The notes beneath the pieces were generated by a model. The model saw nothing but the letters and a program-made list of their open reading frames with translations, was not told where the DNA came from and did no database searches. Of a DNA stretch of 64,000 nt, positions 8,561-43,485 are shown in pieces (position 1 is the stretch's first letter; every line of letters begins with the position of its first letter). Source of the DNA: Bacteroidales bacterium. Lineage in GTDB: Bacteria > Bacteroidota > Bacteroidia > Bacteroidales > F082. Location: positions 1-64,000 of the forward strand of contig JAFXLL010000007.1 of assembly GCA_017531225.1 (NCBI GenBank). The letters run 5' to 3'. The translations under genes and the position numbers were made by a program.

Positions 8561-8581
8561 TCTCACCTTTAACCTCTCACC
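8561..8581 (-). repeat. Heptamer array, GGTGAGA type, at the stop codon of the 1,196-residue gene
   Basis: Minus strand: GGTGAGA (8581-8575), GGTTAAA (8574-8568), GGTGAGA (8567-8561), with a degenerate fourth unit at 8560-8554. The gene's TGA (8579-8577) lies inside the first unit. Two reading frames are closed here because the middle unit is mutated. Confidence 0.75.
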
Positions 8582-11500
8582 TAATTCCCGCTCTCTTCAG
8601 TCGGCTCAAGAAATCCGTTATCGCCTCGTAAGGCGTCACCACGTATTCAAAATAAGCATTCTTATCCTTGATCTCGCGGCTCTTCTCCTTCATGTCGGAG
8701 AGTTTCATGTTGATCGATCCGTAGGTGGCATGCACTTGCAGCTGTCCGTCGCCGCAGTTATAGCTCAAATAAGTCATAAACATGTCATCCACAAAATAAT
8801 AAGTAATCACACCTAAGCGGCGGTCAAACATCACATACCCGTCAACGTAGCGGTTTACGATGTTCTTGCCAAGGCAGCCCAAGCCTATCTTACCTTCTGA
8901 GATAAACGCCCTCAGTGTGGGGTTCCAAACCATCTTCATCGAAGGAATCACGATGGTGTTGGTATAGATCTCCGCTTTCTCGTCCTCGGGATATTCAACC
9001 ATACCCACCGGATCGCCTTCAATATGGGCATATATATCGGCAATCTCTTCCAGCAGTTTCTCGTCAAACAGAGGTGCCTTGAAGACGTTCATCACCTCCA
9101 TGGTCAGGCTGTCGTTGGGATAATTCACAAAATCGCCAGTGCACTCAAAATGGGTCAAGCCTTCGTCGAAGCCCATGTTCGATGCGCCTTTCATGGAAAC
9201 CACACAACGGTCCGACAGTCGCAATTCCTGATGGTTCAGTGTGTCTTGAATCACATAGCTCTGGCTTTCGGTATCGTAGGTTAAAGCGCCATCCTGCGAC
9301 GTCACCGTCACCGTTTCAGGATTCATTGGCTTCAGGAAGTTGACATGATAGCCTCCCTGACTGCCGAACTCGTAGCACAAGCCGTTAAAGATGCCTTGAC
9401 GCACTTTCTTGATGTCGTCCATCACCACAGGGATCTCCACCGCCTGCGGATTGATATTGGCCTTGGAAACGAACCATACGGTATCCTCGAGGCACGACTG
9501 CTCTAAGCGGAAGCTGCCTTCAAAGAAGTCATACGGCTCCGATGCCTTGGAGGTAATCTTTCCCTTGAAGCCGAAATACGGACTCAACTTAAACCCAACG
9601 GAATCGACAGATTCAGTATGGGCTACAGTGATACCATCGACGGGAGTGATCTCATCGAAGAATATCGGCGTGGCCACACCGTCAACATCCACGTAATCCT
9701 TGATACCCAGTGCCATATAGTTGTTACGGCTATAGATGGACACCGCCGCATCCTTGAAGTGATGCATCCGGGTAGCGGTATCCGCCTCAACAACGGCATG
9801 CTCCAACGGACTGATTTCGGCGTTACGCATGATCTTGACATTGCCATTCATCGGGATGATCTCGGCATCGGCCACAAACAGATTGGTGACCTCATGGGCA
9901 TGTATGACGTAGTCGTTCATGTCGTAGTCGGCGTTGGTGGAGTTGAACGACAGCGAGTCGTGCTCAGGCAGCAGCGACACAAACTTCGACTCGATCTGCG
10001 ACTCCGCAGGACTGGAGAGATGCACCCTGTTTGACGCCATATCCCATTCCGCCTCGTTCAACGAGCAATAGAACCGGTTCAGCGGGAAGTCGAGGTTACT
10101 CGTTTCATCTAAGTATTCATAGCGTGCCTTCTTGGCGTTCAAATCCACATGCGAGCGGTAATTTTCCGCCACGAAAGCCTTGGTGGTGCCATCCTCATCA
10201 TACAGGATGAAGTCCGATGAATCGGCCACAAACGAGCGTGTGTCGAAGTCGAAATATTTTGAATCCAACCTTGTCAGGCCGAATGTCATCACACCATCGC
10301 CACGCAAGCCCTCAGGGGTAAGCATCGTATGGCCTTCAAACATGGTGTTGTCATACATCACGATAGGCTCTTCCTTGGTATAGACGAAGAGTTGCGGCAG
10401 CGTAACGTCCCACTTCATGTCGAGTGGTCCGCAGGAGGCTTTCGGGAAATGCGTTCCGGTGCTGCTTTCATGCATGGCGAAAGACTGAACGGACGCCACC
10501 ACGGAGTCAAGATAGAAATCAAAGCGTGGCGAGAGGTATTCCGAGGTCTCCACGCCGAGCTTACCCTCGCCGTAAAAGCCTTCGTCGGAGAGGTACACCT
10601 CATGATGGAAACGCCCTTTGCCGCCGTACACCGGATAATTGGAGTCGCCACCATCGCCAATGACGTGCTTGAAGCCGAGCGAATGGTCGTCCATCACCAC
10701 CAAAGGCTGGATGATGTCTGGAAAGATGCCACCCGACACCAGCCTACCCTTAAATGCGATATCGGTACTATTGAGGTTATCGAGGCTCTCCATGGAGAAT
10801 GGCTCCAAGCAATAATAGAACTTACCCACTAAAGAGTCGACAAGCAACGAATCAGCAGGCAGCTCCAAGTCGAACACGCCACTGTTGATGTCTCGGTAAA
10901 ACTTGTATGCTTCGCCCTCGCTTTGGAACTTCGGGAACGTCGGGGTCTCCCTCACGCTCGACTTATTGTCGCTTTCGTCGATGGTCAGGATGCCTTTAAG
11001 CCGTTCGATGGTGCCATAAACGGGATAAACCTTGTTGCTGAAACGGGCGTAGAAGCGCAACGAGTCGACCTTGGTCATCTCGATGGAGAACTTGCTGTAG
11101 TTGAAAAGGCAGTCCTTGGTGAAGAATTCATACATGCCTGCCATGATGCAGCCTGAGAAATTGAAATTCCTGTGTTTTTTCAGCACGATACGGGCATTGT
11201 CGGGCAGGATCAGCACGTGTTTGTAATCGCTCAGCGTGATCGACGGCACATCCGATTGCGTCTGGTAATCCTTGATGCCATATACCAGCATATCGTTCGA
11301 ATCAAGCAGCAGGCGAATGTTAGGCTGTCGGTTTTCCACCCTGGTCTGGAACTTGATCACGTCGAAGTCGAACTCGCCATGGTTTGAAGCCAGCACATCG
11401 AAAAACCTGTCGAGCACCGCCACCATTTTCGTCTCCTTGTCGTATTCGACATAGCCTTCAGACTGCAGGTTGAGCACCAGCGTCAGCACTTGGGAATATG

Positions 11501-12167
11501 GGTATTTGAGATAATTCGTTAAATCATTGATGTTAAACTGGTTATGCTCATCTCCATAGATCTTGATGAACTTATTCAGGCTCTCCATGGGATGCTTCAT
11601 GTCGAGTGCCTGCATCTTCAGGTAGTCTGACTTACGGAAATAGTTCACCGAGGCGACATAACCTTCGCTCGCGCCACTGGTACCGCCAATGCGGCGAAAC
11701 TCCATCTCGTCATCGTTTCGATTCCAATAGATGGCTTCCAAGAAGATGTCGTACTCATGATAGGTATCGTGAAAAGGTCCCGTCCCCACGCCGCCGTCTT
11801 TCCGGTAGAACATGACCTGATGGTTGTCGTTGTTATAGCGGAACCCGAGGTCGTTATGATAGATGGAGTCGATGGTTTGATGGACAGTGTCGTAAAGGTA
11901 AATGCGGACTTTCGCATTGTTGGATGCGAGGTTGTTGTCTGTCATCGTGAAACGTGGCGACATCACTCTGACGGCAATACGGTTCTTGTACTTGAACACC
12001 AGATGCGCCAGTTCAGGCTTTGTCCCTGTGATCACCGTTGACTTGCCCGTAGTGTCGACACAGCCGGAATAGGCGATATCGCCAAAGATTGTGTTCTTTG
12101 TCACCTGGGCGAAGCCACTGATGGACAAGACCAAGAGCGTCAGCAGTACCGTTACGACCCTTTTCAT
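8577..12167 (-). CDS. Large exported protein of unknown function (1,196 residues)
   Basis: The N-terminus MKRVVTVLLTLLVLSISGFAQ is a signal peptide, so the protein is exported; there is no lipobox and no T9SS sorting domain, leaving the periplasm or outer membrane. The body is long and mixed alpha/beta, with a winged-helix-like stretch around residues 200-260 (FNINDLTNYLKYPYSQVLTL) and then many beta-rich repeats with the pattern of filled bowl-like sheets, e.g. FKGRLVSGGIFPDI and FEGHTMLTPEGLRGDGVM. The ending EAITDFLSRLKRAGIR is charged. Large single-copy proteins of this type occur in other Bacteroidales but I know no function. The stop codon lies in a heptamer array. Confidence 0.75.
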   Translation of the reverse strand: MKRVVTVLLTLLVLSISGFAQVTKNTIFGDIAYSGCVDTTGKSTVITGTKPELAHLVFKYKNRIAVRVMSPRFTMTDNNLASNNAKVRIYLYDTVHQTIDSIYHNDLGFRYNNDNHQVMFYRKDGGVGTGPFHDTYHEYDIFLEAIYWNRNDDEMEFRRIGGTSGASEGYVASVNYFRKSDYLKMQALDMKHPMESLNKFIKIYGDEHNQFNINDLTNYLKYPYSQVLTLVLNLQSEGYVEYDKETKMVAVLDRFFDVLASNHGEFDFDVIKFQTRVENRQPNIRLLLDSNDMLVYGIKDYQTQSDVPSITLSDYKHVLILPDNARIVLKKHRNFNFSGCIMAGMYEFFTKDCLFNYSKFSIEMTKVDSLRFYARFSNKVYPVYGTIERLKGILTIDESDNKSSVRETPTFPKFQSEGEAYKFYRDINSGVFDLELPADSLLVDSLVGKFYYCLEPFSMESLDNLNSTDIAFKGRLVSGGIFPDIIQPLVVMDDHSLGFKHVIGDGGDSNYPVYGGKGRFHHEVYLSDEGFYGEGKLGVETSEYLSPRFDFYLDSVVASVQSFAMHESSTGTHFPKASCGPLDMKWDVTLPQLFVYTKEEPIVMYDNTMFEGHTMLTPEGLRGDGVMTFGLTRLDSKYFDFDTRSFVADSSDFILYDEDGTTKAFVAENYRSHVDLNAKKARYEYLDETSNLDFPLNRFYCSLNEAEWDMASNRVHLSSPAESQIESKFVSLLPEHDSLSFNSTNADYDMNDYVIHAHEVTNLFVADAEIIPMNGNVKIMRNAEISPLEHAVVEADTATRMHHFKDAAVSIYSRNNYMALGIKDYVDVDGVATPIFFDEITPVDGITVAHTESVDSVGFKLSPYFGFKGKITSKASEPYDFFEGSFRLEQSCLEDTVWFVSKANINPQAVEIPVVMDDIKKVRQGIFNGLCYEFGSQGGYHVNFLKPMNPETVTVTSQDGALTYDTESQSYVIQDTLNHQELRLSDRCVVSMKGASNMGFDEGLTHFECTGDFVNYPNDSLTMEVMNVFKAPLFDEKLLEEIADIYAHIEGDPVGMVEYPEDEKAEIYTNTIVIPSMKMVWNPTLRAFISEGKIGLGCLGKNIVNRYVDGYVMFDRRLGVITYYFVDDMFMTYLSYNCGDGQLQVHATYGSINMKLSDMKEKSREIKDKNAYFEYVVTPYEAITDFLSRLKRAGIR

Positions 12168-12172
12168 AACCT

Positions 12173-13000
12173 TTATTTTACGAATTCAGCCGCCACCCAG
12201 CGGTTTTTGGCAAGATGGCGCTTATAGCTTAATCCAAGATGCGCAGCCTCTTCCTTGATGCTTTGGAGGTCTTCCTCGTAGAAGCCGCTGAAGAAGATAT
12301 GTGCCTGAGGTCGCATAGCGTCGACATAGCAATGCATGTCCCTCAGCAGGATGTTGCGGTTGATGTTGGCCAGCACCACGTCAAAGGTTCCCTTGATGGC
12401 TGAGGCGTCGCCCAGCACGATCTCGATGTCGTTGATGCCGTTCAGCGCCACATTGGTGAAGGCGTTGCGGTAGGCCCACTCGTCGTTATCGATAGCCACC
12501 GTTTTAGCTGCACCTAACTTCTTGGCGAGAATGGCTAATACCGCAGTGCCACTGCCCATGTCGAGCACCTCCTTGCCTTGGAAATCCGTCTCCAGCATTA
12601 AGGTGATGATCTGTGCGGTGGTCTCATGGTTGGCGGTGCCAAATGACATCTTAGGCTCGATCACCAGGTCGAACTCGAAGCTCGGATCGGGCTCATGGAA
12701 TGGTGCTCTCACACGACAGCGCTCATTGACAACCACAGGCTGGTAGGAGGCTTCCCACAGCTCGTTCCAGTCCTTTTCCGGCATGGCTTCTACATTGAGG
12801 AGCTTCACACCATGAAAGACCTCCATCCTGAGCAGCTCCTCCACGGCTTGGTCATCACGCTGATCCTCGGTGCAATAGGCTTTCAGCGTCATGTCGTCAT
12901 CCATAAACGAGTCAAAGCCCAAGTCGCCCAGCATGGTGGTCAGCATGTCGTGCTGAATGTCGGAAGTCGGCAGGGTAAATGTGTATTCAAACGTTTTCAT
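12173..13000 (-). CDS. prmA: Ribosomal protein L11 methyltransferase
   Basis: SAM-dependent enzyme that trimethylates ribosomal protein L11. The 275-residue product has an N-terminal recognition domain (about 1-95), then the catalytic domain with FGTANHETT in place of the more usual FGTGxHxTT, the SAM-binding motif DMGSGTAVLAILA, an acidic turn VAIDND and the family motif ANINRNIL (usually DxVxANI). The Gly to Ala change in FGTANH is seen in other members of the phylum as far as I recall. The ATG follows the last heptamer of the array by one base; the heptamer also provides an AGGTG that may act as a ribosome binding site. Confidence 0.93.
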   Translation of the reverse strand: MKTFEYTFTLPTSDIQHDMLTTMLGDLGFDSFMDDDMTLKAYCTEDQRDDQAVEELLRMEVFHGVKLLNVEAMPEKDWNELWEASYQPVVVNERCRVRAPFHEPDPSFEFDLVIEPKMSFGTANHETTAQIITLMLETDFQGKEVLDMGSGTAVLAILAKKLGAAKTVAIDNDEWAYRNAFTNVALNGINDIEIVLGDASAIKGTFDVVLANINRNILLRDMHCYVDAMRPQAHIFFSGFYEEDLQSIKEEAAHLGLSYKRHLAKNRWVAAEFVK

Positions 13001-13001
13001 C

Positions 13002-13029
13002 TCTCACCTTTCACCTCTCACTTCTCACC
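13002..13029 (-). repeat. Heptamer array, GGTGAGA type, spanning the tpiA stop and the prmA start
   Basis: Four units on the minus strand: GGTGAGA (13029-13023), AGTGAGA (13022-13016), GGTGAAA (13015-13009), GGTGAGA (13008-13002). The tpiA stop TGA is 13020-13018. TGA occurs in all four units and covers all three frames. Confidence 0.85.
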
Positions 13030-13797: not shown

Positions 13798-13817
13798 ATT
13801 TTAAAGATTTTAAATAT

Positions 13818-15506: not shown

Positions 15507-15518
15507 GACATCACATGA

Positions 15519-17618: not shown

Positions 17619-17652
17619 GGTAGCTTATTTAGTTAATAATAGGATTAAAAGG

Positions 17653-17660
17653 CAAAGATA
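17653..17660 (-). promoter_or_regulatory. Promoter -7 element for the receptor operon
   Basis: TATCTTTG on the minus strand, 34 bp before the receptor ATG. Confidence 0.55.
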
Positions 17661-17673
17661 AAAGTTTTTTTGA

Positions 17674-17681
17674 TATTTTTG
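17674..17681 (+). promoter_or_regulatory. Promoter -7 element for the 245-residue outer-membrane protein
   Basis: TATTTTTG, 23 bp before the ATG at 17705. Confidence 0.55.
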
Positions 17682-17704
17682 TCCATCCTATAATAAAACC
17701 CTTG

Positions 17705-22240: not shown

Positions 22241-22507
22241 TTACTTCTGCTTCTGTCTCTTCTTCAGAGCGTAAGCTGCGCCGAAGCCGATGAGCAGCAG
22301 TGCACCAGTGCCCAGAGGAGCATCCTGGTCGCTGCCATGTTGGCCAGGCAGTTCGATGAGGGCGCTGGGGGTAACATCACGGTTATCCATGTACTGGTTA
22401 TCCATGCGTTGGTCACCCATGCCAAACAAACCACCACCCTGCTTTTGCGCTACTGCGCCGAGAGTCATTCCGAGAACGATTGCGATAGTTAATAAGGTCT
22501 TTTTCAT
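22241..22507 (-). CDS. Small exported protein with a C-terminal sorting-like tail
   Basis: An 88-residue protein. Residues 1-20 are a signal peptide (MKKTLLTIAIVLGMTLGAVA, then QKQGGG). The middle is short, polar and low in complexity. The end is tripartite: a motif GSDQDAPLGTG, a hydrophobic span ALLLIGFGAAYAL, and a basic tail KKRQKQK. This layout (motif, transmembrane helix, positive tail) is that of exosortase or rhombosortase-type sorting signals and is close to the PID-CTERM type of the Bacteroidetes; I cannot confirm which. It starts 27 bp after the stop of the large T9SS gene, with a heptamer array between, and ends at a terminator, so the two form an operon. Confidence 0.7.
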   Translation of the reverse strand: MKKTLLTIAIVLGMTLGAVAQKQGGGLFGMGDQRMDNQYMDNRDVTPSALIELPGQHGSDQDAPLGTGALLLIGFGAAYALKKRQKQK

Positions 22508-22518
22508 AATATGTAACT

Positions 22519-22539
22519 TTTATCTTTTATCTCTTATCT
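22519..22539 (-). repeat. Heptamer array, AGATAAA type, at the stop of the large T9SS gene
   Basis: Minus strand: AGATAAG (22539-22533), AGATAAA (22532-22526), AGATAAA (22525-22519). The upstream gene's TAA is 22536-22534, in the first unit. TAA in the three units covers all three frames. Followed by AGTTA, as in the array at 27252. Confidence 0.85.
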
Positions 22540-25500
22540 AATAACCATTTTCTGAGTCTTCACGTCGGTGCCGTTGATCAGGCGAAGCACATAGACACCA
22601 GCCTTGGCGTTGATGGCCATGCTGCAGGTGCCGTTGATGTTTTCAGTGGCAACCACACGGCCTGTGACGTCGATCACCTGGAGGGTAGCCTCACCCTCGT
22701 TGGCGATGACGAGCTGACCGTCGCTCATGAAGGCGAAGTCCTCGCCCATCTCGGCGTTGACCATGGTGGTGCTGAACACCAGGCGGAAGCGGCTCTCGTA
22801 GTCATCGGTGCGGGCATTGAAGGTGTAGCTCGGGTTGGCGAGCAGGTCGACGTCCTTACCTGCGATATTATCAATAAGGTGCAGGTAACCCATCTCCACT
22901 TCTTCGGGGTTGACGGTGATGGTGTACTCACCAGCCACGTAAGCCCTGAAGTTGACGGGCATCTCGCCTTGTCCGTTGCTGCTCACGATAGCATATTCCT
23001 CGTTGTCCATCGGGATGTAGATGTTGGCGTTCTGTGTGCCGAAGTAGAACTTAGGCAGCTCGGAGCCCTCGTTGAAGCTTACGATGGCGTTGTCGATGGT
23101 TGTTGTATTCTCACCATTACGTGTAGCGACAGTCTGAGCCAGAACCATTTCAACATTACCCTTACCGGGTGACGAAACTGCATCATCCGTAGTTGGAGTG
23201 AAAGTTACTGAAGAGCCGCTAATGATCACTCCAGTACAAGGAGCGATTGGATTACTTCCGGCAACTGATTCTGATAAGATGACGTCACCTGTAGCATTCA
23301 GCTTATAATAACTTACGTTTAAGCGAGCGTTACATGTGAATGGGTTGCCAACAAGATTGTATCCTGAGTTAAGTCCTGTGATTTCTTTTTCGTCGCTTGG
23401 CTGGATTGTACCAGCGAACTCCAAGGTAACATCACTCTGGTTAGCATAGAGATAACCTTGGCCATTTACAAGGTTAAAGCCGTCCGTATGTTCCTCGTTA
23501 CGATAGTTTTCCCAATAGTCTTTTGGTTTGCTCCCATCATATCTATAAAGGTCGTAGGTGTGTGCTTCTTCAATATCAGCAGTAATCATGTTGGCCACAG
23601 AAGCAGGTGTCGTATTGCTGCTGAGCGGCGAAGCGATGAAGTTCCAGCCATTGCTTTCAGTTCCCCAATTAGTAGCAGCGGAAATGTTCTTTTTAACTGT
23701 GGCCTGAACAGCATCTTTGGCCCCATTGTCATGGAAGAACAACTGGGCACCGTCTTCGATAACAAGGTTTGCGGCGGTGCCATTGTTAGTTAATGTACCA
23801 GTGAGTGTTAACGAAGCGCCCGATTTGACCACAAGAGCTGCTTTAGCTGGAATTGTTAGATTTTCAGTTGACATATTAGATGAAATAGCAATATTGGCAC
23901 CGTCTGACAAGGTAGATGGTAAGGTTGATTCAGGATTCCAAGGCGTAAAATTACCGTATGGCAAATAAATAACCGTTATTTCCCATACACGAACACCTCC
24001 TGTTGACATAATATATCCAGTAGTATAAAAACTTGTTGATAAATCAATAGTTTTCAGTTTTAATGATGAACTTTCACTACTTGCTATTGCTGAACCGTCT
24101 GTTGCTGTTTTAAAAACTAATTGAGTCGATGTAGCAGAACCCTCTTCATAACTTGAATCACTATTGCTAGCACCAGTTACTTTAAATGAAATTTCTTTTA
24201 TTTTACCGTTAAATATAGGAAGTTGAATATAGGGATTGTTATTGGTTCTTAACTGAATCATATTCTTTAGTGTAGAAGTTTGGTATCCTGTTGTTTGCCA
24301 AGTCAAACCATTAAACGTTATTGATTTAAGCGTTCCATATCCAGAACCACTATTTGACATTTCTGATATTTTAGTACCCGAAAGTTTTGCTTGTAAATAT
24401 GGATTAACCTCTGTGGTAATATATATATATACTTCACTTGCTGGCATAGTAAACTTGTTTTCATCGTCAACATCTACATTATTATCCTCCGAGTCAACAA
24501 CAGAAATGGAATAACCATACCCGGCACTTACACTAACATTAATTGTTACTTCTGCATTATAATCGATCTCTGCATTCTCATCTAAAGTTACACCACCAAC
24601 TGAAACAGATGCTGTTGCGCCAGAGTCTGGTCCAGTTACATCAATAGCGTATGCATAAGTAACAGGGATCCATTGAGCAGTTAATGTAACATTGCCTGTA
24701 AGAGGATATGTTGCGCTAGCGGCATAAGTCTTAGTTCCATCATTCCAGCCGCCAAAAGTATAGTTTGTTTTTGTAGGTTCAGTTGAACTTATTATAAAGT
24801 CTCCTGACGGAACATTATTTTCATTAGCAGGACCGCCGGAGCCTCCGTTGCAATTGTATGTAACCGTATAACCAGAAACTGTTCCTGAAAGTGAAACTGT
24901 TTTTTGTGTTGCACCAGTTGAAGCAAGAGTTACATTTTCAGAATTATAATTTCCAACATTCTGCCCTGCTTTGAGACGAGCATAAATCGTAGTGTTGCTT
25001 ACTGTTCCTGCTGCTTGTGTGAGAGTAATAGAACCACTATATGTTCCGTTTTGTGTTGTACAGACCTCGTAATGTGTAGGAGCTGTTATGCTTATATTTG
25101 TTGTTAAGTTTGTTCCACTAACTGTAAATGTTTTCGATGTGCTTGGGCCAGTGCCATGATTATATGACAAACCTGTTAAAGAAGTTGGTAAAACCGTGAT
25201 TGTTGGCTCATCTGATTCTTCTTCGAGAAGATAAACGGTAAAATCATGCTGATAATCGTCTATATTAGATGTGGCATATGCTTTATACTTATGATTGGGT
25301 GTTTCCTTTCCAGAATCACCTAAGAAACGATTTGAGTTGCTTGTATTAGATATTAAAGCCGTGCCATTTGAAAACGAAATACTCCAGATAGCGCTTTTGT
25401 CGCCAAATGCCATATCTGTTTTACTACTATTATTTATGTATTGGTTAGAAGAAAGGCTTACATTTTTTAAGTAGAAACCACCAGTAGCTGCTTCTAGAGT

Positions 25501-25752
25501 CCATACGAAAACCTCGTTTCCCTCCAAATTAGTTGTGGAATATGAATCAGTAGTTTGTAATGCTTTCGAATCGATAGTGTTACTTAATGCATGACTGTCT
25601 CTTACGAATACGTATTTATTACCTGCAGAAACAGATGTGACTTGCGTAAGTTTATACGTGGTTGTTTTTGCTTGTCCCACCGCCTTCCCCGGCAGGTTAA
25701 TCATTGTCAGCAGCATCAACGCCGCAATTAGAAAAGTAAATTTCTTTTTCAT
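22534..25752 (-). CDS. Large T9SS surface protein with InlB-type repeat
   Basis: A 1,072-residue exported protein. The start is the ATG at 25752 (MKKKFTFLIAALMLLTM, a signal peptide); a longer reading frame upstream runs through the structured leader and is not likely translated. Domains: residues about 25-180 a beta-trefoil-like or adhesin N-terminal region; about 185-290 an Ig-like repeat (SKTFTVSGTNL) common in secreted nucleases and adhesins; about 294-360 a Listeria-Bacteroides InlB B-repeat (YTVTYNCNGGSGG to LTAQWIP); a carbohydrate-binding-like region around 490-630; a right part with cleaved-adhesin-like and auto-anchor segments; and a type A T9SS sorting domain from about 1005 (QVIDVTGRVVATENING to KMVIR). 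No catalytic motif seen. Surface adhesin is the likely role. Confidence 0.8.
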   Translation of the reverse strand: MKKKFTFLIAALMLLTMINLPGKAVGQAKTTTYKLTQVTSVSAGNKYVFVRDSHALSNTIDSKALQTTDSYSTTNLEGNEVFVWTLEAATGGFYLKNVSLSSNQYINNSSKTDMAFGDKSAIWSISFSNGTALISNTSNSNRFLGDSGKETPNHKYKAYATSNIDDYQHDFTVYLLEEESDEPTITVLPTSLTGLSYNHGTGPSTSKTFTVSGTNLTTNISITAPTHYEVCTTQNGTYSGSITLTQAAGTVSNTTIYARLKAGQNVGNYNSENVTLASTGATQKTVSLSGTVSGYTVTYNCNGGSGGPANENNVPSGDFIISSTEPTKTNYTFGGWNDGTKTYAASATYPLTGNVTLTAQWIPVTYAYAIDVTGPDSGATASVSVGGVTLDENAEIDYNAEVTINVSVSAGYGYSISVVDSEDNNVDVDDENKFTMPASEVYIYITTEVNPYLQAKLSGTKISEMSNSGSGYGTLKSITFNGLTWQTTGYQTSTLKNMIQLRTNNNPYIQLPIFNGKIKEISFKVTGASNSDSSYEEGSATSTQLVFKTATDGSAIASSESSSLKLKTIDLSTSFYTTGYIMSTGGVRVWEITVIYLPYGNFTPWNPESTLPSTLSDGANIAISSNMSTENLTIPAKAALVVKSGASLTLTGTLTNNGTAANLVIEDGAQLFFHDNGAKDAVQATVKKNISAATNWGTESNGWNFIASPLSSNTTPASVANMITADIEEAHTYDLYRYDGSKPKDYWENYRNEEHTDGFNLVNGQGYLYANQSDVTLEFAGTIQPSDEKEITGLNSGYNLVGNPFTCNARLNVSYYKLNATGDVILSESVAGSNPIAPCTGVIISGSSVTFTPTTDDAVSSPGKGNVEMVLAQTVATRNGENTTTIDNAIVSFNEGSELPKFYFGTQNANIYIPMDNEEYAIVSSNGQGEMPVNFRAYVAGEYTITVNPEEVEMGYLHLIDNIAGKDVDLLANPSYTFNARTDDYESRFRLVFSTTMVNAEMGEDFAFMSDGQLVIANEGEATLQVIDVTGRVVATENINGTCSMAINAKAGVYVLRLINGTDVKTQKMVIR

Positions 25753-25815
25753 TCTGTTTTGTTTTTTGTTAGATATTAATTTGTTTTTGTTGTTCGCGTT
25801 GGTGGGAGCGGGTAC

Positions 25816-25895
25816 AAAAAAAACTCGGGAGCGATAAGTGGGAAAAGGGATTCGCGCCTTGTGGCGAAAGCCCATTCCGACTGCTTATTCTCCCG
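25816..25895 (-). promoter_or_regulatory. Terminator-like hairpin in the leader of the large T9SS gene (possible attenuator)
   Basis: On the minus strand the region folds into one long interrupted hairpin: CGGGAG (25895-25890) with CTCCCG (25831-25826), ATAAG with CTTAT, GGAA with TTCC, GGG with CCC, and an apical CGCC-ACAA-GGCG. Two bases after the stem comes a run of eight T (25823-25816). This is the form of an intrinsic terminator, yet it lies between the promoter -7 box (26014-26007) and the start codon (25752). Confidence 0.6.
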
Positions 25896-26182: not shown

Positions 26183-27271
26183 ATGAACATCGACGGAATC
26201 CTACATAAGCAAGACCTCAACAAAGAAGAGATCAAGCTCCTTTTGGCTGCCGAAGGCGACGACAAGAAGAGGCTCTTCGACCGTGCCCTGCAGGTGAAGT
26301 TCGAGCATTTAGACAACTACGTCCATCTGCGCGGCCTCATCGAGTACAGCAACATCTGCACTAAATACTGCCTCTACTGCGGTGTACGGAGCAAGAATCC
26401 AAACTTTACTCGGTACCAGCTCAGCGACGAGGAAGTAATTGAGTGTGCCAAGTTGGCGCATGAACTGGGCTATGGCTCCGTGGCCTTGCAAAGCGGCGAA
26501 CGCTCCGACAAGGAGTTCACCGACAAGATCACACATCTGGTCAAGGAGATTAAGAAGATTGATAACGGGAGTTTGGGCATCACCCTGTCGCTGGGCGAAC
26601 AGAGCGAAGAGGTCTACAAAGAGTGGTTCGAAGCCGGCGCGCACCGTTACCTGCTACGCATCGAAGCAAGCAACGAAGAACTCTATTATAAGATCCATCC
26701 GCATGATGCCAAACACGACTTCAAAACGCGATTGAACTGCATTGACACCTTGCTGAAACTCGGCTACCAGACTGGCACCGGAGTGATGGTGGGACTCCCC
26801 TTCCAGACCCTCGACGACCTCGCCGGAGACCTGCTCTTCTTCAAGCAGAAAGACGTAGCCATGGTGGGCATGGGACCTTTCATCCCCCACCCTGACACGC
26901 CGCTTTGGCAGTATAGAGACCAGATTCCGACAGCTGAGAAACGCATGGAGCTGACCTTAAAAATGATCGCCATACTCCGCCTGATGATGCCAGAAATCAA
27001 CATGGTGGCCGCCACGGCTAACCAAACGGTCGATCCGATGGGACGCGAGAAAGCCATCGCTGTCGGGGCCAATGTCATCATGCCCAACCTCACGCCAAAC
27101 GAGTTCCGAGAGAACTACCTCATCTACCCTGACAAGGCCTGCGTCAAAGACAAACCCGACCAATGCCAAACCTGCCTGGATGTGAGACTGGCGGCTATTG
27201 GACATCGGGTTTTATATAACGCTTGGGGGGATTCGGTGGCGTTTACAAAAAAGATAAAAGATAAAAGATAA
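26183..27271 (+). CDS. hydE: [FeFe]-hydrogenase maturase HydE (radical SAM)
   Basis: Radical SAM enzyme that works with HydF and HydG to build the H-cluster of [FeFe]-hydrogenase; HydE is linked to the dithiomethylamine bridge. The 362-residue product has the CX3CX2C cluster motif at Cys59, Cys63 and Cys66 (NICTKYCLYCGVR) and the C-terminal CX7CX2C at Cys320, Cys328 and Cys331, which in known HydE binds a second, auxiliary iron-sulfur cluster. This second motif and the MVAATANQTVDP segment favour HydE over the related PylB and BioB. hydF, hydG and the hydrogenase are not in the window. The stop codon lies in the third heptamer of an AGATAAA array. Confidence 0.9.
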   Translation: MNIDGILHKQDLNKEEIKLLLAAEGDDKKRLFDRALQVKFEHLDNYVHLRGLIEYSNICTKYCLYCGVRSKNPNFTRYQLSDEEVIECAKLAHELGYGSVALQSGERSDKEFTDKITHLVKEIKKIDNGSLGITLSLGEQSEEVYKEWFEAGAHRYLLRIEASNEELYYKIHPHDAKHDFKTRLNCIDTLLKLGYQTGTGVMVGLPFQTLDDLAGDLLFFKQKDVAMVGMGPFIPHPDTPLWQYRDQIPTAEKRMELTLKMIAILRLMMPEINMVAATANQTVDPMGREKAIAVGANVIMPNLTPNEFRENYLIYPDKACVKDKPDQCQTCLDVRLAAIGHRVLYNAWGDSVAFTKKIKDKR

Positions 27272-27272
27272 A
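27252..27272 (+). repeat. Heptamer array, AGATAAA type, at the hydE stop
   Basis: Three perfect AGATAAA units (27252-27258, 27259-27265, 27266-27272), then AGTTAAT. TAA at 27255, 27262 and 27269 covers all three frames; hydE ends at the last one. The array also encodes the last residues of HydE (KDKR). Confidence 0.9.
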
Positions 27273-27280
27273 AGTTAATA

Positions 27281-33768: not shown

Positions 33769-33797
33769 AATTTTTCAAATAACCGGTTTTGGGTCTG

Positions 33798-33805
33798 CAA
33801 AAATA
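33798..33805 (-). promoter_or_regulatory. Promoter -7 element for the GLUG-protein gene
   Basis: TATTTTTG on the minus strand, 29 bp before the ATG. Confidence 0.5.
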
Positions 33806-33817
33806 ACAAATTCTGTG

Positions 33818-33825
33818 TATCTTTG
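33818..33825 (+). promoter_or_regulatory. Promoter -7 element for uvrD-DUF4290-murA
   Basis: TATCTTTG, 22 bp before the helicase ATG; only 12 bp from the divergent minus-strand box. Confidence 0.6.
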
Positions 33826-33847
33826 CACCTTAATTTGAAAGCGTAAA

Positions 33848-36229: not shown

Positions 36230-36230
36230 T

Positions 36231-36914: not shown

Positions 36915-36917
36915 GCC

Positions 36918-38902: not shown

Positions 38903-38910
38903 GGCTTGAA

Positions 38911-39819
38911 CTATGGGTTTATTACTTCGTTTTTAAGGGAGGCGACCAATGCATCGCTGATGTTATTTCCTAATTGACGGCATACATCCTGGCTCCAGCG
39001 TTGCGCCATCGCAATACGGGCGGCTTGGTCATTCATGCCTTGAAGTTTAGCGTAGATATAGCCAGCGTTGAAGTTGTCCCCTGCCCCTACCGTACTAACC
39101 GTCTCTATTGGCTGCACCGGATAGGTCTCACAACCTTCGGGTGTATAGACCCTTAAGGGGCGGGCGCCATCGGTCAGAATCAAGGTGTTGCAAAAACCAT
39201 TCACCTTTTCGTAGATAGCGTCACCCTCGTGCAAACTGTACAGATAATCGAAATCCTCCATCGAACCGCGCACCACATCGGCCAGGCTCATGTTTTCCTC
39301 GATATTGGGCTTCAAAATGGGGATATCTGCAATATAGTTTTTACGGAAGTTGACGTCGTAATAGAGCCAAGCGCCTTTATCGTGCGCCTCGTGCAGCAAA
39401 CTGCCCACTATGGGCCGTATGGCGGGATTGATGGCGAAATAGGATCCAAAGAGTACCATGTCATCCTTGCTAAACTCAGGCAGCTTTCCGCCAAGTGCGA
39501 CGGGTGATGGATCCTTGTAAAACATGTATTGTGCATCGTTATGCTCATCGAGGAAGGCCAGCGAGATGGGTGATTTGACGTGTTCGCGACGGAAGACATA
39601 TTCCGATGAAACGCCGTTCTCGTTTAAGAAACGGCAGATCATATCGCCTACGTGGTCGCCGCCCACTTCGGTCACCATGACGCAGTTCACCCCCGCCCTT
39701 CCGAGCGAGACGATGCTATTGAAAGTCGATCCTCCAGGAACCGCTTTTAGTGGTTGGTCATCCTTGAAGAGGATGTCGAGAACGGTTTCTCCGATGCCGA
39801 TAACACGATGGTTGGTCAT
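38911..39819 (-). CDS. PfkB-family carbohydrate kinase
   Basis: A 302-residue ribokinase-like sugar kinase, probably a fructokinase. N-terminal signature GGSTFNSIVSLGRAGVNC and C-terminal signature VSTVGAGDNFNAGYIYAKL, where the Asp in GAGD is the catalytic base. Substrate contacts such as DINFRK-like YDVNFRKNYI match fructokinase and 2-keto-3-deoxygluconate kinases. In an apparent operon with the HAD phosphatase. The specific sugar is not certain. Confidence 0.85.
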   Translation of the reverse strand: MTNHRVIGIGETVLDILFKDDQPLKAVPGGSTFNSIVSLGRAGVNCVMVTEVGGDHVGDMICRFLNENGVSSEYVFRREHVKSPISLAFLDEHNDAQYMFYKDPSPVALGGKLPEFSKDDMVLFGSYFAINPAIRPIVGSLLHEAHDKGAWLYYDVNFRKNYIADIPILKPNIEENMSLADVVRGSMEDFDYLYSLHEGDAIYEKVNGFCNTLILTDGARPLRVYTPEGCETYPVQPIETVSTVGAGDNFNAGYIYAKLQGMNDQAARIAMAQRWSQDVCRQLGNNISDALVASLKNEVINP

Positions 39820-39833
39820 ATAATTTTTGTTTG

Positions 39834-40343
39834 TCAGTTATTATTCAATTCTTCCGCCGCCATTGGCAGGTTGTTATCATCTTCGTTTTGATGGTAGATG
39901 AAGGGTTTGCGTGTTTGATAGAGCGACAGCAGCTTCTCGTTGAGCAAGAGTTCCACCTCGCCCATGGTGCGTTCCAGACGGTCGGTCTTGAGTTGGCATT
40001 CCCAGATGACGATCACCTGCCAGCCGTTGTCCTTGAGGAGCTGGTAGTTCTGTTGGTCCCGATGCTGGTTTCGGGTGATTTTGTTGACCCAGAACTCGGT
40101 GTTGGTTTGCGGTATCTTACAGCACCCCTCGTGCCCATGCCAGAAGCATCCGTTGACGAAGATGGCCGTATGGTAGCGGCGCATCACGATGTCGGGCTTC
40201 CCCGGAACGCCTTTCACGTTGAGGCGGTAGCGGTAGCCGTGACGCCACAGCCATTGCCGCACCTTCAGCTCGGGCTTGGTGTTGCGGCTGCGGATGTGCG
40301 ACATCACAAGATGGCGCTGCGCTGGAGTGAGGCGATCCGTCAT
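39834..40343 (-). CDS. vsr: Very short patch repair endonuclease Vsr
   Basis: Nicks DNA next to T:G mismatches that arise when 5-methylcytosine deaminates, starting short-patch repair. The 169-residue product contains TPAQRHLVMSHIRSRNTKPEL, the catalytic core GVPGKPDIVM with the active-site Asp, and the zinc-site segment FVNGCFWHGHEGC. Vsr normally travels with a C5-cytosine methyltransferase, but none lies in the window, so this is a lone copy and possibly an island remnant. Its promoter is back to back with that of the toxin-like gene. Confidence 0.93.
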   Translation of the reverse strand: MTDRLTPAQRHLVMSHIRSRNTKPELKVRQWLWRHGYRYRLNVKGVPGKPDIVMRRYHTAIFVNGCFWHGHEGCCKIPQTNTEFWVNKITRNQHRDQQNYQLLKDNGWQVIVIWECQLKTDRLERTMGEVELLLNEKLLSLYQTRKPFIYHQNEDDNNLPMAAEELNNN

Positions 40344-40368
40344 GATTCATTGTGTTTCTGACTGGTTG

Positions 40369-40376
40369 CAAAGATA
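40369..40376 (-). promoter_or_regulatory. Promoter -7 element for vsr
   Basis: TATCTTTG on the minus strand, 25 bp before the vsr ATG. With the plus-strand box it makes a symmetric TGCAAAGATA...TATCTTTGCA arrangement. Confidence 0.6.
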
Positions 40377-40388
40377 ATGTATTTATTT

Positions 40389-40396
40389 TATCTTTG
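40389..40396 (+). promoter_or_regulatory. Promoter -7 element for the PBECR-like gene
   Basis: TATCTTTG, 51 bp before the ATG at 40448; divergent from the vsr promoter with only 12 bp between boxes. Confidence 0.6.
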
Positions 40397-40447
40397 CAGC
40401 GAGATGCAAGTGAGCTATGTTTTATTATTAACATAGATTTACTTGAA

Positions 40448-40894
40448 ATGAAAAAAGAAAAAACCATCAACCAGGAAACCAAAGTCGAAATTGGAGACTT
40501 TGGACCGATTTACAGACAGTTTGAAAGGAAGCCGAAAGAAGCAATCGAATATTTGTGTAAAATGAAAGACGGTGATTGTATCCGTGCTTTATACCGCGAA
40601 GACATTGGCTTCATTGACATTATTTGGGGTGAAATAACCGACCCAATTAAGCACAAAGGTTATGGATTGGCACACATTATTGACAAACACGGCGATGACA
40701 TCAAAGCACTTGGCTTTAGTCTGGAACAATTCATTCCTATTCTTGTTAAATATGGAGATTTGGCAGAATCCAAAGACCCAGATAAAATCATTCTTAAAGG
40801 AAACAATTTTAAAATCATTATATCTAAGAAAGCATATAAAAACAATAGGGTTATGAACAAAACGTTCGTATTGACTTCATTTAGTATAAAATAA
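40448..40894 (+). CDS. Toxin-like nuclease, PBECR (barnase-EndoU-ColicinE5/D-RelE) type
   Basis: A 148-residue protein. The second half (about residues 60-148) matches the PBECR fold of phage and toxin RNases: GFIDIIWGEI, the GYGLAHIIDKHGDDI motif with two His, a strand pair GNNFKIIISKKAY, and a final NKTFVLTSF strand. The N-terminal 55 residues (KEKTINQETKVEIGDFG) have no known domain. I start at the ATG in ACTTGAAATG; the longer frame upstream overlaps the promoter. RNase activity is a family-based inference. No antitoxin gene is visible next to it, which is odd for a free toxin. AT-rich compared with its neighbours. Other reading: a domesticated or phage-derived fragment. Confidence 0.65.
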   Translation: MKKEKTINQETKVEIGDFGPIYRQFERKPKEAIEYLCKMKDGDCIRALYREDIGFIDIIWGEITDPIKHKGYGLAHIIDKHGDDIKALGFSLEQFIPILVKYGDLAESKDPDKIILKGNNFKIIISKKAYKNNRVMNKTFVLTSFSIK

Positions 40895-40922
40895 AATCGC
40901 CAGCATGAAAGTGCTGGCGATT
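40895..40922 (+). terminator. Hairpin after the PBECR-like gene
   Basis: AATCGCCAGCA (40895-40905) pairs perfectly with TGCTGGCGATT (40912-40922), loop TGAAAG. No T-run follows, so termination would be weak or factor-aided. Confidence 0.65.
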
Positions 40923-41060
40923 AAGTGGAAATATTCAGAACGTATGACGTAGAATATTTTAAATTTGGTCCGCTGCACCAAAGAACCACTAAGTCTATAT
41001 TATGTTTTGCAAAATTACAACAAAGTTTCGACATCCGCAAGGGGTTTCGGCATTTATTGT

Positions 41061-41140
41061 TAACTTTGCATTTTAGAAAACACTATTAAGCGATGGACGA
41101 CGGACTGAAAAACTACCTCATCGGCGCTCGATATCATTGA
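41061..41140 (+). pseudogene. Promoter and 15-codon stub cut off at the 109-bp repeat
   Basis: TAACTTTG (41061-41068) is followed by ATG at 41093 and the frame MDDGLKNYLIGARYH, which stops at TGA 41138-41140 inside the repeat. It looks like the start of a gene joined by deletion to the tail of a second phosphoesterase copy. The lost gene cannot be named. Confidence 0.35.
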
Positions 41141-41234
41141 ACTACGAGGATTGTAATACTCATCGCAAGTGTTTGAAAAAATTTTTCAGGAAAACCTTGC
41201 GGAATATGGAGAATGTTGTTTATCTTTGCCACGT
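41126..41234 (+). repeat. 109-bp direct repeat, copy 1
   Basis: 101 of 109 bases are identical to 42217-42325, without gaps. It begins with codons LDIIELRGL and a stop, matching the LDIMELCEL end of the phosphoesterase, so it is the tail of a second, deleted gene copy plus its downstream region. The right end holds a promoter: TTG (41197-41199), 21 bp, TATCTTTG (41221-41228). Confidence 0.85.
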
Positions 41235-41332
41235 CAATCGGAAACGGATTGGCTATCCGGGCAGAATCCCGAGAGGGCAAGCCTTTATCGACACTACCCA
41301 GTTTAAAAGAAGCCTCAAACGAGGCTTTTTTT
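41233..41332 (+). ncRNA. Candidate small RNA, about 100 nt
   Basis: It starts just after the promoter of repeat copy 1 and ends at an intrinsic terminator AAGCCTC-AAAC-GAGGCTT plus seven T (41310-41332). Predicted folds: CAATCG-GAAA-CGgATTG with a GNRA loop (41235-41251) and CGGG-CAGAAT-CCCG (41258-41271). No known RNA family recognised; not SRP RNA, as its conserved loop is missing. Confidence 0.5.
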
Positions 41333-41461
41333 GTTAAAACTTCTCGCGCTTCTTTGTTCGCTTTAAAATAGATTTCACCTTTTCAGCAGTTTTTTTTGCT
41401 TTCCGATGAAACATTTCTGCTCTTTTTGCTACTTATAAGCGAAACAACCGACAAATAAGCT

Positions 41462-42247
41462 ATGAAAAGCAAGATTTTAATAGCATATGAGTTTCCAGGA
41501 GTAAAGCACGTTGTTGTAAGCGGCGACATTCATGGTGATTTTACGGAGTTTGTATTCAGGTGCTGTAAGAAATATGGAATGACGGACACATTGATTATCG
41601 TAGCAGGTGACTGCGGCTTTGGGTTTGAACGGCCTGAATATTATAAGGATGTTTACATAAAATGTAGCAAGCAACTTTCAAAATCCAATAATTGGATCGC
41701 GTTTGTTCGTGGCAACCATGACAACCCCGCTTACTTTAATCAACAGCCCATCAAACATCGGCGTTGGATGACGCTTCCTGATTATTCTGTAGTGAAAGCC
41801 TGTGGTCATACCATTCTTTGCGTTGGAGGCGCCACATCCATCGACCGGATGTGGCGCATGACGCTCAGACAATTTCACTTACAGCAACCTGACGAGCCAT
41901 TGATTCCAAATGTCTATTGGATAGATGAAGGTCCTACTTATGATGGGTTAAAGCTGGAAACTATCAATGAGTTGTACACCATTGACGCGGTGATCACACA
42001 CACTTCCCCATCGTTTTGTGAGTTGGTGTCACATCAGGGTATTCAAAATTGGACAATTCATGATGAGGATTTAATGGATGACGTGAAAGCCGAAAGGAAT
42101 GTCATGGATCAACTTCATTCCTATCTAAAATCCAAGAAACATCCGCTTCGCTACTGGTATTACGGTCATTTCCATCAAAGTTGGCATGCGGAGATAGATG
42201 GCGTAACGTTCCGCATGCTCGACATCATGGAACTATGCGAATTGTAA
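41462..42247 (+). CDS. Calcineurin-like metallophosphoesterase
   Basis: A 261-residue cytoplasmic enzyme with the full set of metal-binding motifs: SGDIHGD, AGDCGFG, RGNHD (Asn and His), a His in VITHTSP, and the GHFHQSW (GHxH) end. It therefore should be an active phosphoesterase using two metal ions. Similar stand-alone proteins occur in accessory regions and near phage or toxin genes; substrate may be a nucleotide, RNA end or protein. The gene lies between two copies of a 109-bp repeat, of which the second includes its last 10 codons, suggesting a past tandem duplication. AT-rich relative to neighbours. Confidence 0.8.
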   Translation: MKSKILIAYEFPGVKHVVVSGDIHGDFTEFVFRCCKKYGMTDTLIIVAGDCGFGFERPEYYKDVYIKCSKQLSKSNNWIAFVRGNHDNPAYFNQQPIKHRRWMTLPDYSVVKACGHTILCVGGATSIDRMWRMTLRQFHLQQPDEPLIPNVYWIDEGPTYDGLKLETINELYTIDAVITHTSPSFCELVSHQGIQNWTIHDEDLMDDVKAERNVMDQLHSYLKSKKHPLRYWYYGHFHQSWHAEIDGVTFRMLDIMELCEL

Positions 42248-42325
42248 CACTCCTCGCAAGTGTTTGAAAAAATTTTTCAGGAAAACATTGCGGAATATGG
42301 AGAATGTTGTTTATCTTTGCCACGT
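42217..42325 (+). repeat. 109-bp direct repeat, copy 2
   Basis: Begins in the last 10 codons of the phosphoesterase and ends after its own promoter (TATCTTTG at 42312-42319). Directly downstream a small hairpin GTTGA-AACA-TCAAC (42324-42337) would be at the 5' end of any transcript. A weaker third match (TCATCACAAGTGCTTGAAAA) lies at 42624-42643. Confidence 0.85.
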
Positions 42326-42452
42326 TGAAACATCAACCCTTCCCCTTGCAATAATACAATTTTTTCCGGGAACGACAATAGTAAGCACTCACAATTTGGG
42401 ATATCTTGGGGTTAGCGAAAAGACAGGGGTAGTAGCGAGAAGCAACTTTTTA

Positions 42453-42477
42453 CTGTAGCACTGTAGCAACTGTAGCA
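42453..42477. repeat. CTGTAGCA tandem repeat, three copies
   Basis: CTGTAGCA at 42453-42460, 42461-42468 and 42470-42477, with one extra A before the third copy. Confidence 0.7.
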
Positions 42478-42798
42478 AAACAACAAAAACAACAACAGAA
42501 AAGAGAAAACAACTTCAACAAAATAAATAATTTCTAAGTCTAATGTAACTCTAACCTAACTCTAACTTTTCGCTAACCAAATATTCACGTTCCAGACGCT
42601 GCTTCGAATTATTTGTAGATTCTTCATCACAAGTGCTTGAAAACTTTTAATTTTCTTACGTATTTCCCGCTTTTGATGTCGTTGTAGCTGAGGCTCACAC
42701 CCGAATCATTCTTTGGTGGTTTGATTACAACCAAGCCTGCTTGGATACTTTTTCAGTTCACCGAAAGGGCTTCGACTAAAAAAAGCCCGTAAAATCCC

Positions 42799-42839
42799 TG
42801 CCATTTTGTCAATTTCCTCCCTTTGGCAAAGCTTTTGCT
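42799..42839 (+). promoter_or_regulatory. Chaperone-type upstream element and sigma-54-like promoter of grpE-dnaJ
   Basis: TGCCA (42799), TGTCA (42807) and TTGGCAAAGCTTTTGCT (42823-42839). The last has GG and GC 10 bp apart, as in -24/-12 sigma-54 promoters, about 50 bp before the ATG. The same order of words occurs before htpG. Confidence 0.5.
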
Positions 42840-42890
42840 ATGTCAGAGGCGCTCCTAATTTGAAAATAATTAATAAATAAAAATATCGTC

Positions 42891-43469
42891 ATGGAAGAAA
42901 AGAAAGACATTGAAATTCAGGAAGATGAAACCCAAAAACAAACTGAGCAGCAAGTTGAGAACCCATCAGTAGAGCCACAAGAGACCGAAAACAAGCGACA
43001 TAAAGGCAGACGCGCCCATGCCAAGGCTTTGGAAGAAGCCAAGGCAAAATTCGCCGAGCTTAACGACACTTACCTCCGCCTCTACTCGGAGTTCGACAAC
43101 TACCGCAAGCGCACCGCCAAGGAGAAACTTGAGCTGTCTGCTACCGCTTCGGCCGCTGTCATGAAAGACCTGCTCCCTGTGCTCGACGACTTTGAACGCG
43201 CGCTCCAAAACATGGAGAAGAACGGCAACGAAGCCGACCTGCAAGGCGTCACGCTGATCTACAACAAGTTCAAATCGACTCTCCAAAAGAGAGGCTTGGA
43301 AGAGATCGTAGCCATCGACTGCGACTTCAATACCGACGAACATGAGGCCCTGACTATGGTTCCTGCCCCCGACGAGTCGAAGAAAGGCAAGGTGATCGAC
43401 GTGATTCAAAAGGGTTACAAGCTCAACGGAACGGTGATCCGCTTCGCCAGAGTGGTAGTGGGAAATTGA
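42891..43469 (+). CDS. grpE: Nucleotide exchange factor GrpE
   Basis: Releases ADP from DnaK so that the chaperone cycle can go on. The 192-residue product has an acidic, disordered N-terminus (about 1-45), a long coiled coil (about 50-105; KFAELNDTYLRLYSEFDNYRK) and a C-terminal beta domain (LVPAPDESKKGKVIDVIQKGYKLNGTVIR-type sequence; here MVPAPDESKKGKV). It is followed by dnaJ, as in many Bacteroidetes. The TGA stop is inside the first unit of an ATTGAAA array. Its promoter region shares words with that of htpG. Confidence 0.95.
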   Translation: MEEKKDIEIQEDETQKQTEQQVENPSVEPQETENKRHKGRRAHAKALEEAKAKFAELNDTYLRLYSEFDNYRKRTAKEKLELSATASAAVMKDLLPVLDDFERALQNMEKNGNEADLQGVTLIYNKFKSTLQKRGLEEIVAIDCDFNTDEHEALTMVPAPDESKKGKVIDVIQKGYKLNGTVIRFARVVVGN

Positions 43470-43485
43470 AAATTGAAAATTGAAA
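43465..43485 (+). repeat. Heptamer array, ATTGAAA type, at the grpE stop
   Basis: Three perfect ATTGAAA units (43465-43471, 43472-43478, 43479-43485). TGA at 43467, 43474 and 43481 covers all three frames; grpE ends at the first. The dnaJ ATG is 3 bp after the array. Confidence 0.9.

Follow-up and report, generated by a model that had tools for sequence, protein, structure and literature searches.

Dispersed heptameric tandem repeats at the gene junctions of a Bacteroidales genome: period-7 specificity, unit turnover, and probable persistence at sites where they do no harm

The 64,000-nucleotide stretch of DNA analyzed here, hereafter the window, covers positions 1 to 64,000 of contig JAFXLL010000007.1 (assembly GCA_017531225.1, Bacteroidales bacterium) and belongs to a source genome of 2.58 Mb in 14 contigs (G000). 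It contains five short tandem arrays of 7-nt units, each of which holds the stop codon of the gene upstream of it. This heptamer pattern is real, genome-wide, and specific to period 7. The explanation that we favor, and that we hold to be probably, though far from certainly, correct, is that the arrays are dispersed heptameric tandem repeats (STRR or heptamer repeats in the broad sense) that were added as blocks and that persist at tight gene junctions, or in genes whose reading frame is left open. An earlier note, made from the letters of the window, had located the five arrays and had placed an upstream stop codon inside each one. Direct reading and Tandem Repeats Finder, which lists all five, recovered the same positions, and the list of open reading frames (ORFs) agrees for all five stops (Table 1).

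A lenient scan of the window returned four period-7 arrays (the array at 8561 was missed as too imperfect) compared with a mean of 0.017 in 60 shuffled sequences. The same scan returned 0–2 arrays for each of the remaining periods from 4 to 14. In 857 kb of the source genome, which is a third of it (the window plus approximately 793 kb of other stretches, counting arrays of at least three units), the numbers of arrays with periods of 4 to 14 were 0, 0, 2, 28, 1, 3, 1, 1, 0, 0, and 1, respectively, the 28 being those of period 7. Five order-2 shuffles of this sample gave means of 0–0.2 arrays for each period from 4 to 12. The entire source genome was also searched with three-unit patterns, where overlapping hits are counted and hits therefore outnumber arrays. 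At up to two mismatches, 77 hits were obtained for AGATAAA and 53 for GGTGAGA, compared with 0 for either reversed control. The search for ATTGAAA gave 34 hits versus 10 for its control, a reversed pattern that resembles the real AGTTAAA type.

The same specificity was found in related genomes, which share ancestry and are not independent of one another in any of the counts given here. Period-7 arrays numbered 34 in 300 kb of G023, 17 in 340 kb of G020, and 8 in 160 kb of G068, and no period other than 7 within the range of 4 to 14 exceeded 0–3 arrays in these three genomes or in the source genome. A fresh sample of 400 kb from G071, G011, G055, and G017 contained 16 period-7 arrays versus at most 2 of any other period. 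The corresponding values were 2 versus at most 1 in 241 kb from 13 other genomes of the same order, and 6 versus at most 1 in 387 kb from 63 further loci that are mostly Bacteroidota by title. The possibility, raised in the earlier note, that arrays of other lengths are equally common was not borne out; period 7 stands alone. There were no period-7 arrays in 60 kb each of G060 and G049, one in 60 kb of G054, and two in a combined 51 kb of G013, G052, and G021. The AGATAAA pattern is patchy, being present in 13 of the 41 genomes searched and ranging from 0 to 177 hits within the genus.

The counts of placement, unit sequence, and stop content that follow rest on a first sample of 90 strict arrays. 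The consensus unit can be rotated to the form RRRR-N-K-N (R, purine; K, G or T) in 81 of the 90, compared with 37% of the junction 7-mers oriented alike, a comparison in which arrays of one family are not independent. Judged from these consensus sequences, the unit types of the window are variants of one degenerate form, and the description of them as unrelated in the earlier note has to be withdrawn. Several unit families coexist within single genomes. Where nearly every unit in the window had been said to contain TGA or TAA, the count is 16 of 16, and the per-frame stop counts agree with the closure of all three frames by four of the five arrays and of two frames by the array at 8561. Among the 90 arrays, three frames are closed by 60, two by 12, one by 7, and none by 11. 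Stop-free heptamers, which include AACGGAA (G023 and G020), AGTTGGG (G000), and GCCAAAA (G021), among others, are not equally frequent.

The 90 arrays comprise 71 that are intergenic, 17 within genes, and 2 at gene edges. In raw counts, the intergenic arrays at co-directional junctions are 35 in the sense and 11 in the antisense orientation, while convergent gaps hold 22 and divergent gaps 3. Orientation is assigned by the purine majority and is close to a coin toss for some units of G068, G011, and G017. The expected overlap with stop codons was calculated by random placement of arrays within the same gaps. Of the 20 intergenic arrays of the source genome, 18 cover or adjoin a sense stop (12.2 expected, p = 5e-5), as do 16 of 27 in G023 (9.1 expected, p = 1e-4). 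There is no excess in G020 (9 of 14, 8.6 expected), G068 (2 of 7, 1.7 expected), G054 plus the mixed sample (1 of 3, 2.0 expected), or the four genomes of the fresh sample combined (4 of 14, 2.9 expected). The enrichment at stop codons anticipated in the earlier note thus extends beyond gap geometry in two genomes and fails to do so in the others. Since random placement already gives 12.2 of the 18, most of the stop overlap in the source genome comes from the narrowness of its gaps, and the remainder is a real excess.

We propose that a process working in a 7-nt register would add blocks of about 30 nt, made up of about three to five degenerate RRRR-N-K-N units, between genes and at times within them. 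These blocks would spread within the genome, in that the same few families, partly in the same unit order, recur. Purifying selection, we infer, would then sort where the arrays survive. A stop-bearing array in the sense orientation within a gene body would break the gene. An array at the last codons would be harmless, as a stop would be supplied within three units whatever the frame, and an array in the short gap ahead of the next start would be likewise harmless. Inside genes, survival would be limited to those arrays that leave the frame of the gene open. Because the median co-directional gap in the source genome is 18 nt, most of the surviving arrays would touch a stop codon. The built-in stops would then be mainly a property of the unit families and a license to sit at stops, and not their reason for being. 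New arrays may arise by slippage in the 7-nt register, by a switch of template from one array to another, or through some dedicated activity. Of the causes suggested in the earlier note, the best supported is a site that tolerates the insertion of a mobile repeat.

The arrays within genes are informative in this regard. All six that close three frames on the purine strand are antisense, so that the genes are read without those stops. The stop-free arrays are four sense and one antisense, and those closing one or two frames are three sense and three antisense; one more in-gene array, in the sense orientation, was found in G017 of the fresh sample. This split by orientation fits what selection against in-frame stops predicts. 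In the antisense in-gene arrays of the source genome, 21 of 25 units contain a stop trinucleotide, and three of the four misses are in a single AGTTGGG array. The value for units on sense stops is 164 of 187, and stops are thus not confined to positions where they are able to act, as a fail-safe would have it. Because the antisense units retain stops that lie on the non-coding strand, the stop appears to be a trait of the family and not one that termination maintains. A recent origin of the antisense arrays is a possible alternative reason for the retained stops.

These counts bear on the three-frame translation barrier put forward in the earlier note, in which arrays would be kept to close every frame and to halt ribosomes that have read through a stop or shifted frame before they reach the next gene. 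Such a barrier would account for the closure of all frames by four of the five window arrays and 60 of the 90 sampled, for the contact with a sense stop of 18 of the 20 intergenic arrays in the source genome, and for the fact that wholly stop-free arrays touch stops in 2 of 6 cases. It does not account for antisense units that keep a stop although it is unable to act. Among intergenic arrays, 35 of 52 that close three frames touch a stop, as do 6 of 11 that close at most one frame, which is not a significant difference at these small numbers (Fisher p = 0.49). There is no stop enrichment past gap geometry in G020, G068, G071, G011, G055, or G017. The title of one published paper denies selection for fail-safe 3' additional stop codons in eubacteria, unlike in eukaryotes (PMC6764699). 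We consider the barrier highly improbable, mainly because of the stops kept on the non-coding strand.

Comparison of the same sites in sister species supports the addition of blocks. In 49 comparisons, the median excess in length of sites with an array over orthologs that have none is 27 nt, and the median array is 31 nt long; seven of the 49 length comparisons are negative, against the trend. Because the array sites are longer than their array-free orthologs, the arrays are taken to be additions. An array is found at the same place in another species for 21 of 43 array sites, compared with 52 of 395 array-free junctions (Fisher p = 1.9e-7), and most of the orthologous-site comparisons are without one (27 of 76 with an array). 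Units of orthologous arrays resemble one another marginally more than shuffled pairs do (4.79 versus 4.21 of 7 positions, p = 0.02, 19 partly overlapping pairs). The site orthologous to the 27252 array in G023 carries an 8-unit AGATAAA/AGTTAAA array.

The junction between grpE and dnaJ was compared across 30 loci of the genus, one of which has no recognizable grpE. Arrays of at least three units are present at 7 of the 30 and represent six unit types (Table 1). Shorter heptamer-like runs were seen by eye in G053, G004, and G014, and the remaining loci have palindromic or other repeats, or a short gap alone. Several unrelated repeat families occupy this junction. In several sister species (loci L060–L080), palindromic repeats (GTCATTGCGAGG...-like and CCTTCGACAGGCTCAGGG-like) are found soon after the grpE stop; from their appearance, we take these to be REP-like. 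The gap at L060 (G050) contains three tandem copies of a repeat of approximately 35 bp, TTTACCCCGTTAGGGGTTAAAGCTCGGTAGA, and a single copy is present at L061 (G071).

At the junction between the triosephosphate isomerase (TIM) gene and prmA, 14 of 17 relatives are array-free, and in 11 of these 14 the stop codon was seen by eye to overlap the start codon; the scripted gap of 50 for nine of them corresponds to a later ATG. The arrays at the other three loci (L081, L082, and L092) are of three unit types. An assembly artifact is unlikely, as the arrays of this junction at L081 and L092 were recovered by the strict scan and a shorter one at L082 by eye. The 17 loci, by title all Bacteroidales or Bacteroidia, encode TIM proteins 85–96% identical to that of the source genome among the best 80 of 582 relatives. 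Six of their titles mention a ruminant, and another eight carry isolate names of the RUG series, a rumen collection.

The same junction bears on purely local replication slippage, in which an array would have grown in place from a native 7-mer wherever 7-nt indels are tolerated. Mrazek and colleagues put forward slippage of heptamers (cited in PMC4679880 and PMC4692102), the TIM-prmA arrays resemble a native GGTGAAG by eye, and the source genome and the close species at L081 differ by one unit (four versus five), all of which would be expected from growth in place. A test for local seeds was, however, negative (5.55 versus 5.48 of 7 positions, p = 0.29), and the same few unit families recur throughout the genome. 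Separate loci also have a unit order in common: the order AGAA occurs in 7 of 37 arrays versus 1.9 expected, a value reached in 6 of 5000 shuffles for a motif chosen post hoc. We therefore regard local slippage as the sole source of the arrays as quite unlikely. Separately, an A-G-A-A order of the variable base, present in AGATAAA arrays, was also seen by eye in ATTGAAA arrays of the source genome (C3 5384, C5 87495, and C5 138327).

An additional explanation is that the arrays function in translation or in the mRNA, as a purine-rich unstructured spacer that aids termination and restart or marks 3' ends, with inverted pairs in convergent gaps acting as hairpin terminators. The excess of sense over antisense arrays at co-directional junctions (35 versus 11) would be consistent with this role, as would the 17 of 35 sense arrays that end 2–10 nt before the next called start, although the closeness to starts is only what gap geometry gives: 21 of 38 sense arrays lie within 12 nt of a start versus 22.3 expected, and a start-codon element was rejected on that basis. 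The 90 arrays include seven inverted pairs, of which five lie in convergent gaps (Table 1) and two inside genes, and a similar facing pair is present in a co-directional gap at L115 (1236–1340). These facing pairs are inverted repeats that could form hairpins. A role in translation was proposed by MacGregor for TAACTGA repeats (PMC4679880). The low frequency of arrays at orthologous sites (27 of 76), the 17 of 90 arrays that lie inside genes, and the poor conservation of unit identity at the same site all argue against a conserved element, and we judge this explanation to be unlikely.

There are several points that the addition of blocks followed by selection does not accommodate well. In roomy gaps (more than 40 nt free) of G000, G020, and G023 combined, 11 of the 14 arrays that are flanked by a sense stop at the 5' side cover or adjoin that stop when 2.3 are expected; the value for the remaining genomes is 3 of 12, with 2.3 expected. 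Gap geometry thus leaves part of the stop overlap unexplained. Of the six wholly stop-free arrays, two touch a stop, each between grpE and dnaJ in a sister species, so that the presence of stops in an array may bear to some extent on its placement at a stop. For antisense arrays, a start is no more than 12 nt away in 7 of 14 cases (4.0 expected, p = 0.03). The AGAA motif was picked after the data had been seen, and the less selected count of identical arrays is weak, being reached in 447 of 5000 shuffles. No enzyme or master copy was found, in a search that consisted of one scan of viral contigs. Gene ends were taken from our own simple gene caller. Finally, the selective filter fails to predict the polarity of the arrays. 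Among arrays with free space, the ORF that flanks the purine strand at its 5' side is the closer one in 38 of 46 when G068 is excluded (p = 9e-6) and in 41 of 52 when it is included. For arrays wholly inside gaps with more than 20 nt free, the value is 12 of 18 (p = 0.24). Out-of-sample counts of 9 of 14, 2 of 2, and 4 of 5 are in the same direction and are not significant alone.

A polarity of this kind has been reported for the heptamers of Xanthomonas and Nostoc, where the nearer ORF tends to be on the 5' side of the purine-rich strand (PMC4692102). It is conceivable that one process common to Bacteroidota, Xanthomonas, and Cyanobacteria lays down RRRR-N-K-N arrays with the 5' end of the purine strand abutting an ORF stop (sense) or start (antisense), and that it rewrites the same junctions with lineage-specific units, possibly through templated addition or through array-to-array copying in a 7-nt register. 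We consider this proposal distinctly improbable. If the polarity holds, it would point to a shared polarized process, and it is the most interesting loose end of this work.

The statement in the earlier note that there was no account of such stop-codon placement does not survive a comparison with the literature, since both Rehm et al. 2015 (PMC4692102) and MacGregor 2015 (PMC4679880) report it. Rehm et al. described GGGANTN heptamers in Xanthomonas and GGGGAYT heptamers in Nostoc. Like the arrays described here, these are degenerate, dispersed, and mainly intergenic (mostly of four units in Xanthomonas). They hug or overlap stops on the coding strand, with those on the non-coding strand near starts; few lie between divergent genes, and inverted pairs are present (few in Nostoc). 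The four-purine run followed by N(T/K)N in a 7-nt unit, as in the GGGAATC-type repeats, is the form found in the 81 consensus units noted above. Two Xanthomonas species share 83% of heptamer contexts while length and sequence vary (PMC4692102). The repeats of Rehm et al. are, in contrast, G-rich and capable of forming G-quadruplexes, whereas the window units AGATAAA, ATTGAAA, and GGTGAGA contain no GGG. One unit family was studied per lineage, and co-directional repeats are nearly equal on the two strands (30% and 35% in Xcc); our arrays include several A-rich families per genome and are 35 sense versus 11 antisense. By our own reading of its sequence, the Rehm unit in tandem has no stop codon, whereas most of the units here carry one.

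MacGregor reported TAACTGA direct repeats in marine Beggiatoaceae, some Cyanobacteria, and five Bacteroidetes, with other heptamer repeats beside them in some of the Bacteroidetes (PMC4679880). The similarities are stops in three frames, location in gaps, and overlap with the upstream stop (13 sets, up to 18 nt into the coding end). The TAACTGA repeats are mostly just upstream of starts and are translatable in the reverse orientation. The unit is fixed, near variants are rarely repeated, and the emphasis is on start codons, whereas the units here are interchangeable and are in excess at stops. The first listed units of the 90 arrays include no rotation of TAACTGA; at L089 there is TAATTGA, which differs from it by one base. 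The cyanobacterial STRR (short tandemly repeated repetitive) sequences (PMC2670836) are usually repeats of 7 bp, and translation coupling or transcript stability was suggested for them. Over-representation of heptamers in bacteria was reported in 2007 by Mrazek and colleagues, who proposed polymerase slippage (cited in PMC4679880 and PMC4692102). REP-like repeats are palindromic, unlike single heptamer arrays; all five window arrays are single direct arrays, and none has the palindrome or terminal inverted repeats of a REP or MITE.

Heptamers that hug stops and starts in Xanthomonas, Nostoc, and Beggiatoaceae are therefore already in print. Our literature searches returned no account of heptamer arrays in this group of Bacteroidales, and MacGregor 2015 was the only match for heptamers in Bacteroidetes. 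Relative to the portions of the Rehm and MacGregor reports considered here, what is new is the many interchangeable families per genome, the replacement of units at a fixed junction between species, and the way in which in-gene arrays divide according to their stops. The genus offers tens of array sites with and without the array in sister species, and insertion, loss, and unit turnover are thus measurable. A caution is that repeats that bring their own stop codons can pass for designed terminators.

Table 1. Positions, units, and genetic context of the heptamer arrays (window coordinates for the first five rows; frame counts are stop codons per frame).
Feature	Genome or contig	Position	Strand	Units	Stops per frame	Upstream ORF end	Context
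GGTGAGA-type array	window	8561..8581	-	GGTGAGA GGTTAAA GGTGAGA (3)	0/2/1	8577(-)	Stop of 1196-aa ORF 8577-12167(-) inside array; downstream neighbor dnaN 7314-8441(-), Pfam DNA_pol3_beta
GGTGAGA-type array	window	13002..13029	-	GGTGAGA AGTGAGA GGTGAAA GGTGAGA (4)	1/1/2	13018(-)	TIM gene (stop 13018-13020) to prmA (start 13000); Pfam TIM, PrmA
AGATAAA-type array	window	22519..22539	-	AGATAAG AGATAAA AGATAAA (3)	1/1/1	22534(-)	On stop of 1113-aa ORF 22534-25875(-), 11 nt ahead of 88-aa ORF 22241-22507(-)
AGATAAA-type array	window	27249..27279	+	AGATAAA x3, perfect (27252-27272), plus AGTTAAT	1/1/1	27271(+)	Third unit supplies stop of radical SAM gene 26183-27271(+); acyl-ACP thioesterase ORF from GTG 27281 (Pfam)
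ATTGAAA-type array	window	43463..43485	+	ATTGAAA x3, perfect (43465-43485)	1/1/1	43469(+)	Holds grpE stop (43467-43469), 3 nt ahead of dnaJ (43489); Pfam GrpE, DnaJ
grpE-dnaJ array	G000			ATTGAAA			The 43465 array above
grpE-dnaJ array	G052			AGATAAA			
grpE-dnaJ array	G020			AACGGAA			
grpE-dnaJ array	G023			AACGGAA			
grpE-dnaJ array	G067			AATTTAG			
grpE-dnaJ array	G071			GAGTTAG type			
grpE-dnaJ array	G010			GGAATGC			Inverted pair
In-gene array	C7	49037	antisense				Gene resembling cytochrome c peroxidase (translation judged by eye)
In-gene array	C7	157465	antisense				Gene resembling C-terminal processing protease (translation judged by eye)
Facing array pair	G000 C5	82300-82373					Convergent gap
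Facing array pair	G023 C1	26682-26764					Convergent gap
Facing array pair	G023 C1	54100-54190					Convergent gap
Facing array pair	G023 C1	153068-153126					Convergent gap
Facing array pair	G023 C1	228653-228731					Convergent gap

Among the genes that flank the window arrays, neither the 1196-aa ORF that adjoins dnaN nor the 88-aa ORF beyond the 22519 array has any Pfam match. The 1113-aa ORF has a weak match to a type IX secretion tail (Por_Secre_tail, 20.3 bits), which is below the cut-off of 27. A phage origin of the arrays was considered and rejected, as a 28-nt cassette gave 0 exact matches in viral contigs. Two more perfect short tandem repeats are present in the window, at 738–761 and 6444–6466, with periods of 9 (AACGTGCAG) and 11 (TAATACAACTA), respectively.

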